From Chloroflexota bacterium (GTDB lineage Bacteria > Chloroflexota > Anaerolineae > Aggregatilineales > Phototrophicaceae): DNA of 64,000 nt. Both the position numbers and the translations under genes were made by a program. The notes beneath the pieces are model-generated. The model made no database searches and was not told the DNA's origin. It saw only the letters and a list, made by a program, of their open reading frames with translations. The DNA lies in the NCBI GenBank assembly GCA_013388745.1, contig JACAER010000013.1, positions 35,366-99,365 on the forward strand, given 5' to 3'. Numbering within the stretch: position 1 is the first letter of the stretch; each line of letters opens with the position of its first letter. Shown piece after piece: positions 46,463 through 49,789 of the stretch.

Positions 46463-46750
46463 TCAAGGGCACTGAAACGCATAATTGTCCCACCCACCCA
46501 CCGCGATAGCGCTGCGGCGATACCCACGCTGCTCCTCGTCCCACCGTTCATACCGCTCACGACCTGGAAAATCGGTCGCCTCTTGTTCCAACATCTCTTG
46601 AACCACCCGCTGCGCCGCCAGCCGAATGAACTGACTTATCGGTGCTTGCTGGCTGCCGCCGCCCACGACATCTCGTAACTCTTGCCGTACCCGTTCACTG
46701 GGTGCTATTTCTGGCATACGGACATCACCGGCGTGTTTGACGCTGAACAC
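46463..46750 (-). pseudogene. IS256-type transposase, N-terminal remnant
   Basis: Residues MPEIAPSERVRQELRD and FIRLAAQRVVQEMLEQEATDFPGRERYER match the start of IS256-family transposases (which continue with RGYRNGY). Here the match ends at RGYRR and the remaining 16 residues are unrelated, so the catalytic DDE domain is lost. Confidence 0.7.
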
Positions 46751-47606: not shown

Positions 47607-47635
47607 TTGACATTTACGACTGGGGGCAGGATAAT
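47607..47635 (+). promoter_or_regulatory. consensus sigma-70 promoter of the fluoride operon
   Basis: TTGACA (47607-47612) and GATAAT (47630-47635) are spaced by exactly 17 bp. A transcript would begin near 47642, about 18 nt before the aptamer. This is the strongest canonical promoter in the window. Confidence 0.85.
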
Positions 47636-47659
47636 TGCCCGCTGAGAAGTAAATTCATT

Positions 47660-47725
47660 AAGCGATGAAGCTCGCTTGAGCCATCTGTTGGCCGAAGCGT
47701 CCAAAGTGGACTGATAGCCTCTACC
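47660..47725 (+). promoter_or_regulatory. fluoride riboswitch (crcB motif)
   Basis: The element shows the parts of the fluoride aptamer: P1 hairpin AAGCGA/TCGCTT with loop ATGAAGC, P2 hairpin GTCCA-aag-TGGAC, then CTGATAGCCTCTACC. That last string matches the conserved CUGAUGGCCUCUAC tail of the Thermotoga fluoride riboswitch. The loop GAAGCT can pair with AGCCTC (pseudoknot, one mismatch). A 21-nt joining region has an extra small hairpin (GCCA/TGGC). The tail overlaps the 5' arm of the following terminator, so aptamer folding should block termination when fluoride is bound. Located 162 bp before crcB. Confidence 0.82.
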
Positions 47726-47746
47726 CGATGTGGTAGAGGTTTTTTT
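47718..47746 (+). terminator. intrinsic terminator, expression platform of the fluoride riboswitch
   Basis: CCTCTACC-cgatgt-GGTAGAGG followed by seven T. The 5' arm is shared with the riboswitch pseudoknot strand. Without fluoride this would stop transcription after about 105 nt. Confidence 0.9.
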
Positions 47747-47886
47747 GTCTGGAAGCGGATCAGATGATTGAGCTTATAAAAGGAACGCTGACAGCTAAAG
47801 ATGGGTTTGAACTTGTTCATCGCCAATTTGCGCTAGAGTTAACATCAAAATCATGACTTCAAATCAGCAAACGGCAGCATAAATCT

Positions 47887-48282
47887 ATGTTCTTGACGAG
47901 GCGACAGGTGGAGACTTTTCTCATCATCGGGCTAGGTGGGTTTATCGGCGCGAATTTGCGGTATATCGTTTCGGGCTGGGCAACCGAGCGTTTTGGGAAT
48001 GCCTTCCCGTGGGGAACCCTGCTTATCAATTTTAGCGGCTCGTGTCTGCTGGCGGTCTTTGTTGGATGGGCTACCAATCATCCTCTCTTCGACCCGCGTG
48101 TACGGCTACTGATTGCCGTTGGTTTTTTCGGGGCATATACCACTTTTTCGACCTATGCGACGGAGAGTCTTGCGCTTTTGCAGGCGGGTGATTGGATTGG
48201 CGCTGTGGGCAACGTTTTGGGAACGAATCTGATCTGTATTCTTGGAGCACTTTTAGGGCTGGCAGTTGGCGGTCGATTGTAA
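47887..48282 (+). CDS. crcB: fluoride exporter FluC (CrcB)
   Basis: The 131-residue protein has four membrane helices and the CrcB motifs: GGFIGANLRYIVSGW at the start, GTLLINFSGSCLLAVF (with the conserved Asn) and GFFGAYTTFSTYATES (the Phe-box and TTFSTF-type region). Fluc channels form dual-topology dimers that expel F-. It is downstream of the fluoride riboswitch and 23 bp before the DUF190 gene. Confidence 0.95.
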   Translation: MFLTRRQVETFLIIGLGGFIGANLRYIVSGWATERFGNAFPWGTLLINFSGSCLLAVFVGWATNHPLFDPRVRLLIAVGFFGAYTTFSTYATESLALLQAGDWIGAVGNVLGTNLICILGALLGLAVGGRL

Positions 48283-48305
48283 AATAAGGATAAAGGAGAA
48301 ATGCG

Positions 48306-49577
48306 GTGTCAGCGCCTATTTATGCTAAAAGACTCATGATTTACCTGGGAGAGAACGATACCTGGCGGGGACGTTCCCTCTACATGAGTATTCTCGAATC
48401 GCTTCGCAAAGCTGGAATTGCTGGAGGAACGGTGACGCGCGCCATTGCCGGTTTTGGAGCGCACAGCCGCATCCGAACGCACACCATTGAAGTGTTGTCC
48501 GTCGATTTACCCATTGTGATTTCGATTATCGACATTCCAGAAAACATTGAGCGGGCACTGGCGCTCATTTCGCCGATGGTGCGTGAAGGGTTAATTACGG
48601 TAGAAGATGTCGAAATCATCAAATATACCCATCGTTATCTGCACCCATTGCCTGCTGATCAGCCAGTGGCTGCGATCATGACCCGTGAGATAACGACAGT
48701 GACACGGGAAACACCCGCCCGTCAGGTTGTCGAACTGCTGTTAGGCAAATTGTTTAAGGCAGTGCCCGTCGTTGACGAGCAAAACCGTGTAATTGGGATT
48801 ATCACCGATGGCGATTTGCTGCGAAATGCTGGAATGCCTGTTCGTTTAGCCATTGGTGAAAGACTTGAAGCAGACGACCTGCGCCAATTTCTGGCTTCGG
48901 TGCGTCAGGAAAAAACGGCTCAAGAAATTATGACCAGCCCTGTCGTGACCGCGCGGGAAGATGAAGCGCTCGGTCATGTTGTGCAACAACTGCTGAATAA
49001 GGGCTTGAAGCGAATGCCGGTGGTTGACACAGATGGCAAGCTGGTTGGGATGGTCAGCCGCCTGGATATTTTACGGGCAACGGCTGGTCATGGCGGTGGA
49101 CAGCAGGAGCAGGCTCCTGCGCTACATCCAGGACAGACGATTGGTGAATTGATGACTTCTGAAGTGCCTATCGTACACGTCAATGACGACCTTACCGATG
49201 TGCTTCAACACTTACTTCAGGCAGATACTAAGCGGGTTATTGTCCTTGATGAGCAAGAACGCCCCATAGGAATCATCACCGATGGCGATCTGGTGGCGCG
49301 GGTTAGTCCAGTGATACGGCGTAATGTGCTTCAGGCGTTAGCCGCCAAAATGATGGGAACAGATGTGAAACGAGGCGAAGTGACGGCGGGTGAGATGATG
49401 TCTGAGCATGTGCTGACATCTCCCCCAACGACCAGTCTTGTTGAAGCCATCAACCTTATGCTGCACGAAGGGCGCAAGCGTCTCATCGTCGTGGATGAAC
49501 AGGGGCGTCCGCTGGGTATTGTGGATCGGCAAACGCTGATGGCAGCCAGCCTGGGCGGATTAAAAAATAACTTATAG
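48306..49577 (+). CDS. DUF190 protein fused to four CBS domains
   Basis: The 423-residue product begins with a PII-like DUF190 domain (about 1-108: KRLMIYLGENDTWRGRSLYMSIL and LRKAGIAGGTVTRAIAGFG). Four CBS domains follow as two Bateman pairs (start motifs IMTREITTV, IMTSPVVTA, LMTSEVPIV, MMSEHVLTS; each ending in IGIITDGDLL or LGIVDRQTL type sequence). CBS pairs usually bind adenosine nucleotides. DUF190 genes often accompany crcB, so a fluoride-linked regulatory role is likely. The start is GTG behind GGAG; transcription is shared with crcB. Confidence 0.92.
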   Translation: MSAPIYAKRLMIYLGENDTWRGRSLYMSILESLRKAGIAGGTVTRAIAGFGAHSRIRTHTIEVLSVDLPIVISIIDIPENIERALALISPMVREGLITVEDVEIIKYTHRYLHPLPADQPVAAIMTREITTVTRETPARQVVELLLGKLFKAVPVVDEQNRVIGIITDGDLLRNAGMPVRLAIGERLEADDLRQFLASVRQEKTAQEIMTSPVVTAREDEALGHVVQQLLNKGLKRMPVVDTDGKLVGMVSRLDILRATAGHGGGQQEQAPALHPGQTIGELMTSEVPIVHVNDDLTDVLQHLLQADTKRVIVLDEQERPIGIITDGDLVARVSPVIRRNVLQALAAKMMGTDVKRGEVTAGEMMSEHVLTSPPTTSLVEAINLMLHEGRKRLIVVDEQGRPLGIVDRQTLMAASLGGLKNNL

Positions 49578-49606: not shown

Positions 49607-49789
49607 TTGACTGTTGACGAGGCGCTTCGTAAGCTGGATTCCAGTGTGGAATACGGCTTAACCTCTGGGGAAGCAGAAAAACGTCTTCAGCAGTACAGAG
49701 TCGAGGCATTAACCAAAAGTATGCCCCTGGTCTTTGGCATCGTCTTCTCGCTCAGTTCAATAATTTCGTCATCTATCTGTGTGACCTGA
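49607..49789 (+). pseudogene. P-type cation ATPase, N-terminal remnant
   Basis: MTVDEALRKLDSSVEYGLTS and GEAEKRLQQY match the cation-ATPase N-domain. After about 32 codons the family sequence moves to another frame (LLAQFNNFVIYL, typical of the first membrane region), and then all similarity ends. The P domain and all transport residues are missing. The start is a TTG shortly after the DUF190 gene. Confidence 0.75.

Follow-up and report, generated by a model that had tools for sequence, protein, structure and literature searches.

The window examined here, a stretch of 64,000 nucleotides from a Chloroflexota bacterium, contains a crcB/fluC fluoride channel gene followed by a gene which joins a DUF190 domain to four CBS domains, and it raises the question of what this second protein could do beside such a channel. 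A preliminary description, made from the sequence, had regarded the locus as a fluoride-resistance operon and had hinted at a response tied also to adenosine nucleotides. The operon is borne out by the Rfam match, by a pseudoknot and a terminator which exclude each other, by the homology of FluC and by the gene order in relatives, and the positions given for its elements proved correct. Riboswitch, FluC, DUF190 and CBS modules are each already known. Our reading, to which we assign a probability of about one half, is that the operon serves fluoride-induced export and that the DUF190-CBS protein tunes FluC according to adenylate status. Promoter, aptamer, terminator overlap, FluC, domain fusion, gene order and CBS motif residues, on which this reading draws, are all sequence-based (Table 1).

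Table 1. Features of the operon, numbered from the first letter of the window.
Feature	Position	Strand	Basis or remark
Sigma-70-type promoter, TTGACA-17-GATAAT	47607..47635	+	consensus match only, 11/12
Fluoride riboswitch aptamer (RF01734)	47652..47730	+	30.6 bits, E 1.1e-6 in 451 nt
First hairpin of the aptamer, AGCG-AUGAAGCU-CGCU	47661..47676	+	loop bears pseudoknot strand 47667-47672
Extra hairpin of the joining region, GCCA-UCUGU-UGGC	47680..47692	+	15-nt insertion relative to RF01734
Second hairpin of the aptamer, GUCC-AAAGU-GGAC	47699..47711	+	
3' pseudoknot strand, AGCCUC	47716..47721	+	A.C mismatch with loop; inside conserved tail CUGAUAGCCUCUAC
Intrinsic terminator	47716..47746	+	10-bp stem 47716-47741, then T run
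crcB/fluC fluoride channel, 131 aa	47887..48282	+	PF02537, TIGR00494, alignment to Ec2 Fluc 5a43
TTFSTY motif of crcB	48139-48156		Tyr codon 48154-48156 at the Ec2 Phe83 position
DUF190 (PII-like) with four CBS domains, 423 aa	48306..49577	+	PF02641, PF00571, AlphaFold2 model, Foldseek

Just past the operon a 60-aa frame (49607-49789) matches cation-transporting P-type ATPases in their N-terminus only (PF00690) and is a truncated gene remnant. On the minus strand a 95-aa frame (46463-46750), for which there was no Pfam match, resembles by eye the start of a mutator-type transposase.

The promoter, described beforehand as a consensus one, is the best of three candidates in the region at a threshold of 9 of 12 matches, a level at which shuffled sequence averages 2.6 sites. 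The aptamer claimed behind it was recovered with the covariance model of the fluoride riboswitch (crcB motif, RF01734) in a local scan of 451 nt; its score of 30.6 bits (E 1.1e-6) stays below the Rfam gathering score of 34, which is why a default Rfam scan of the whole window reported no RF01734 match. Matches to sroD and isrB at the same position have E above 2 and are due to chance. In common with the known riboswitch the leader has two hairpins, a pseudoknot from loop to tail, the conserved CUGAU-CUAC tail and a terminator which overlaps the pseudoknot strand, and it stands before a fluoride gene. It is unlike RF01734 in the extra hairpin between the two hairpins, in one mismatch of the pseudoknot and in its score under the threshold. 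The pseudoknot joins GAAGCU of the loop to AGCCUC of the tail by five of six possible pairs and one A.C mismatch. The terminator stem begins exactly at this AGCCUC strand and its 5' arm holds the strand entirely, as the preliminary description had it, so aptamer and terminator are mutually exclusive. The fold of the leader has a z of -4.05, and none of 200 shuffles was equally stable.

The extra hairpin, which had also been noticed before between P1 and P2, lies within the 15-nt insertion 3' of the first hairpin in the RF01734 alignment, and the low score of the window aptamer is plausibly due to it. We gathered by pattern 64 distinct aptamers from the fetched loci of Chloroflexota and some Bacillota, 48 of which have a terminator-like hairpin overlapping the tail. 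Between the first hairpin and the tail, 40 of them have 15-21 nt and the other 24 have 25-57 nt; most of these 24 could form an extra hairpin, and the aptamer of locus L077 two. Among relatives that have an aptamer, L016 is the closest; its extra stem occupies the same position as that of the window copy and is longer, and no Rfam match was obtained for this aptamer even at E 0.5. Further insertion-bearing aptamers of the same crcB/DUF190-CBS operon type likewise score under the gathering score (30.6 in L030, 28.3 in L034, 33.7 in L040 and 30.0 in L044), and long joining regions are thus a recurrent feature that pushes several switches under the Rfam threshold. Folding energy alone provides no statistical proof of the hairpin: single inserts often fail to reach significance when compared with shuffles (p 0.16 for the window insert), and the mean z is about -1 with long joining regions versus -1.4 with short ones. 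What speaks for it is therefore its recurrence, together with the longer stem of L016, and the hairpin is an insertion recurring in many aptamers of Chloroflexota and no singularity. Negatives and the class tally of the RF01734 genome search are lower bounds, since its loose first pass missed the window's own copy. Five RF01734 matches are present in genome G060. In the genome of the window another match (contig C23, L011 4934-5012, minus strand, 24.3 bits, E 0.0043), proposed as a second riboswitch, lies opposite the end of serS in antisense orientation, where no fluoride gene was seen, and we treated it as chance.

The single mismatch of the pseudoknot, also correctly foreseen, is peculiar to the window copy: all six pairs are present in the other 63 aptamers, in a set whose pattern required at least five of six pairs, so that poorer copies would escape it. 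This mismatch may weaken the window switch and counts against our main reading. It could even mean that the switch is decaying in this genome, the pseudoknot being crippled and the terminator winning, so that the operon would be mostly off or insensitive to fluoride; the intact terminator stem would agree with this, and in other fluoride riboswitches switching is altered or lost when the pseudoknot is changed (PMC11077080). We consider such decay unlikely. Close relatives of the motif pair GAGGCU with AGCCUC or GAAGCU with AGCUUC, thus having G-C or A-U at the pair in question, which places the window copy one change between two paired, working states. Most other conserved positions of the aptamer are retained, an A.C pair is able to form a protonated wobble, both genes are intact, and the mismatch could also be a base error of the assembly.

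The channel gene was rightly named crcB, with matches to PF02537 (6.4e-26, 91.1 bits versus a cut-off of 32.9) and to TIGR00494 (104.7 bits versus 80.45), although its start codon is uncertain, with a start a few codons later in several relatives. In the alignment to Ec2 Fluc the equivalents of the pore residues N41 and F80 are retained, unlike F83, whose position is taken by Tyr90, a difference absent from the preliminary description. F83Y is inactive in Ec2 Fluc, which counts against the export reading, and the same paper states that other coordination schemes occur in nature (PMC5636608). Among the 99 FluCs of our set the pore pair is Phe-Tyr in 18 (the window and 17 others) and Tyr-Phe in 6. 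The Phe-Tyr pair occurs in 13 of 31 FluCs from loci of fusion relatives versus 5 of 68 others, counts which ignore relatedness and whose second group includes a few loci with fusions. Tyrosine at the Phe83 position, abolishing transport in Ec2, is here a natural variant within the FluC family and no ground for exclusion. A second crcB-like stretch of the same genome (L012 2698-2934 region, G000:C9:92718-93023) has two in-frame TGA codons and looks like a remnant.

The architecture claimed for the second gene, a DUF190 domain joined to two Bateman pairs, was recovered as a DUF190 match (PF02641, 2.1e-33, 114.9 bits versus a curated cut-off of 23.4) and four CBS stretches (PF00571, 4.9e-54). The similarity of this part to P-II (PF00543) is weak, its 24.5 bits falling just below the 25-bit cut-off, and we name it PII-like only. 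In common with the DUF190/UPF0166 proteins, of which PH1503 (PDB 2dcl) and TM0021 (1o51) have solved structures, it possesses the full-length domain with its conserved loop and strands and, as at most DUF190 loci examined, has crcB as a neighbor; it is unlike them in the four CBS domains appended, a fusion seen only in the Chloroflexota sample. In the AlphaFold2 model (mean pLDDT 80.7, pTM 0.63) loop 49-57 is of low confidence yet conserved in sequence in fused DUF190, less strictly in stand-alone DUF190, which would fit the expectation for a partner-binding T-loop.

In an alignment of 32 fusions the ribose-binding Thr/Ser and Asp are maintained in CBS1 and CBS2 (T/S167 in 31, D170 in 32, S251 in 30 and D254 in 29), and D326 of CBS3 is conserved in at least 90%. 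In CBS4 an Arg is invariant and the ribose Asp is missing; the missing Asp counts against tuning by adenylates. Foldseek placed MJ1225, AMP-bound SSO3205, AMPK-gamma and ribosome-bound CBS proteins of archaea highest; these matches are confined to the CBS part, and a match to AMPK-gamma would be expected of any protein with four CBS domains. With AMPK-gamma and the archaeal adenylate sensors MJ1225/SSO3205 the protein shares the arrangement of four CBS domains as two Bateman pairs, the ribose motif of CBS1 and CBS2 and the Asp of CBS3, and it differs from them in the fusion to a PII-like domain, the lack of a kinase partner and the loss of the Asp in CBS4. The conserved residues, together with the predicted fold, lend weight to the putative tie to adenosine nucleotides hinted at beforehand.

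The full-length fusion was found in four other genomes at 65-69% identity, with crcB directly upstream in all (loci L013-L016 have crcB, then DUF190-CBS), and across many families among 298 searched genomes of the class. At the class level crcB is directly upstream of the fusion in 28 of the 30 loci taken, the window copy being one of the 30. A Pfam search found DUF190 in 76 of 251 genomes of the phylum, many of the frames being 410-490 aa long, and DUF190 of any form comes just after crcB in 28 of 30 loci taken from this sample, which overlaps the class-level set by a few genomes. The exceptional Chloroflexota genomes G033, G066 and G437 have crcB elsewhere, about 10-12 kb off in the first two. 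In Bacillota DUF190 is present in 52 of 250 genomes and crcB is upstream of it in 27 of 30 loci. The frames listed there are mostly 75-190 aa, and none among those listed for the 250 genomes is of fusion length; the 319-aa frames at L131 and L134 are long open frames, the former, on reading, with DUF190 at its end and no CBS. The adjacency to crcB in both phyla indicates that DUF190 is a general partner of FluC, and, within the samples examined, the fusion to CBS domains is an elaboration of this companion peculiar to Chloroflexota. Many relatives have the gene pair and no detectable riboswitch, which again counts against our main reading. At loci L032 (597-866) and L060 (1615-1884) a strong fluoride riboswitch is separated from crcB-DUF190-CBS by a further DUF190, which stands alone and is about 32% identical. 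The gene before crcB in L015 (2716-3576), judged by reading, looks like a formate/nitrite-type transporter.

The same gene order bears on two other explanations of the DUF190-CBS protein. It could be merely co-expressed with FluC and, with no contact to it, act on translation or on a fluoride-sensitive metabolic target such as pyrophosphatase, enolase or another ATP-dependent process. Metabolic genes do occur in fluoride riboswitch regulons (PMC11139923), and ribosome-binding CBS proteins (9znf, 9e7f) are among the best structural matches of the CBS part; the tight adjoining of DUF190 to crcB, both fused and stand-alone and in two phyla, makes this rather doubtful. Alternatively, DUF190 could serve FluC structurally or in its assembly, for example in dual-topology insertion, or could itself sense fluoride, with CBS domains which only stabilize or oligomerize it, in accordance with the CBS-free stand-alone DUF190 after crcB in Bacillota and part of Chloroflexota. 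We find this the least probable of the explanations, as the control genomes of E. coli and B. subtilis have crcB and no DUF190 match, so DUF190 is not generally needed, and conservation of the ribose-motif residues would be unexpected in a mere scaffold.

We therefore return to fluoride-induced export with tuning of FluC. When fluoride is absent, the conserved tail of the leader would pair into the terminator and transcription would end near 47746. With fluoride present in the form of a Mg-F complex, the AGCCUC strand would be held in the pseudoknotted aptamer, the terminator would be blocked and both genes would be transcribed, so that fluoride could leave through FluC down its electrochemical gradient. 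The DUF190-CBS protein, made alongside, probably adjusts FluC, or its assembly, at the post-translational level: the DUF190 part would contact its target via the conserved flexible loop GFGAHSRIxTAS, and the AMPK-gamma-like module would read AMP, ADP and ATP. PII proteins regulate transporters, as in GlnK-AmtB and SbtB-SbtA. Here, too, a small PII-like protein with a flexible conserved loop is encoded beside a membrane transporter; unlike in these pairs, the putative partner is a dual-topology fluoride channel and the ligand is presumably read by the appended CBS domains. FluC is a passive channel, so a depolarized cell could take fluoride in, and the protein might for example close the channel upon collapse of energy and membrane potential, when fluoride would enter. 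A PII-like protein with an adenylate sensor, co-made with FluC, would suit such a role in preventing influx. It counts against this that a PII-like trimer and a dual-topology dimer have no obvious geometric fit. The link between FluC and the DUF190-CBS protein is genomic; the fluoride response of the window copy, nucleotide binding, contact with FluC, gating and the direction of the effect are inferred.

A 2024 review states that natural protein-level regulators of Fluc have yet to be identified and that such a regulator could prevent influx (PMC11139923); in the largely open-access literature we found no functional study of DUF190/COG1993 with fluoride or FluC. It is tempting, if more tentative than our main reading, to suppose that DUF190 proteins are these missing regulators and that the Chloroflexota form is fused to an AMPK-gamma-like adenylate sensor which gates efflux by energy state on top of the riboswitch. 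The DUF190-CBS gene, conserved but unstudied, is a good candidate for a FluC-regulating protein. The joining-region hairpin shows why the Rfam cut-off misses a share of the fluoride riboswitches of Chloroflexota, and the presence of a PII-like and AMPK-gamma-like protein beside fluC makes the question of FluC regulation testable with two genes.
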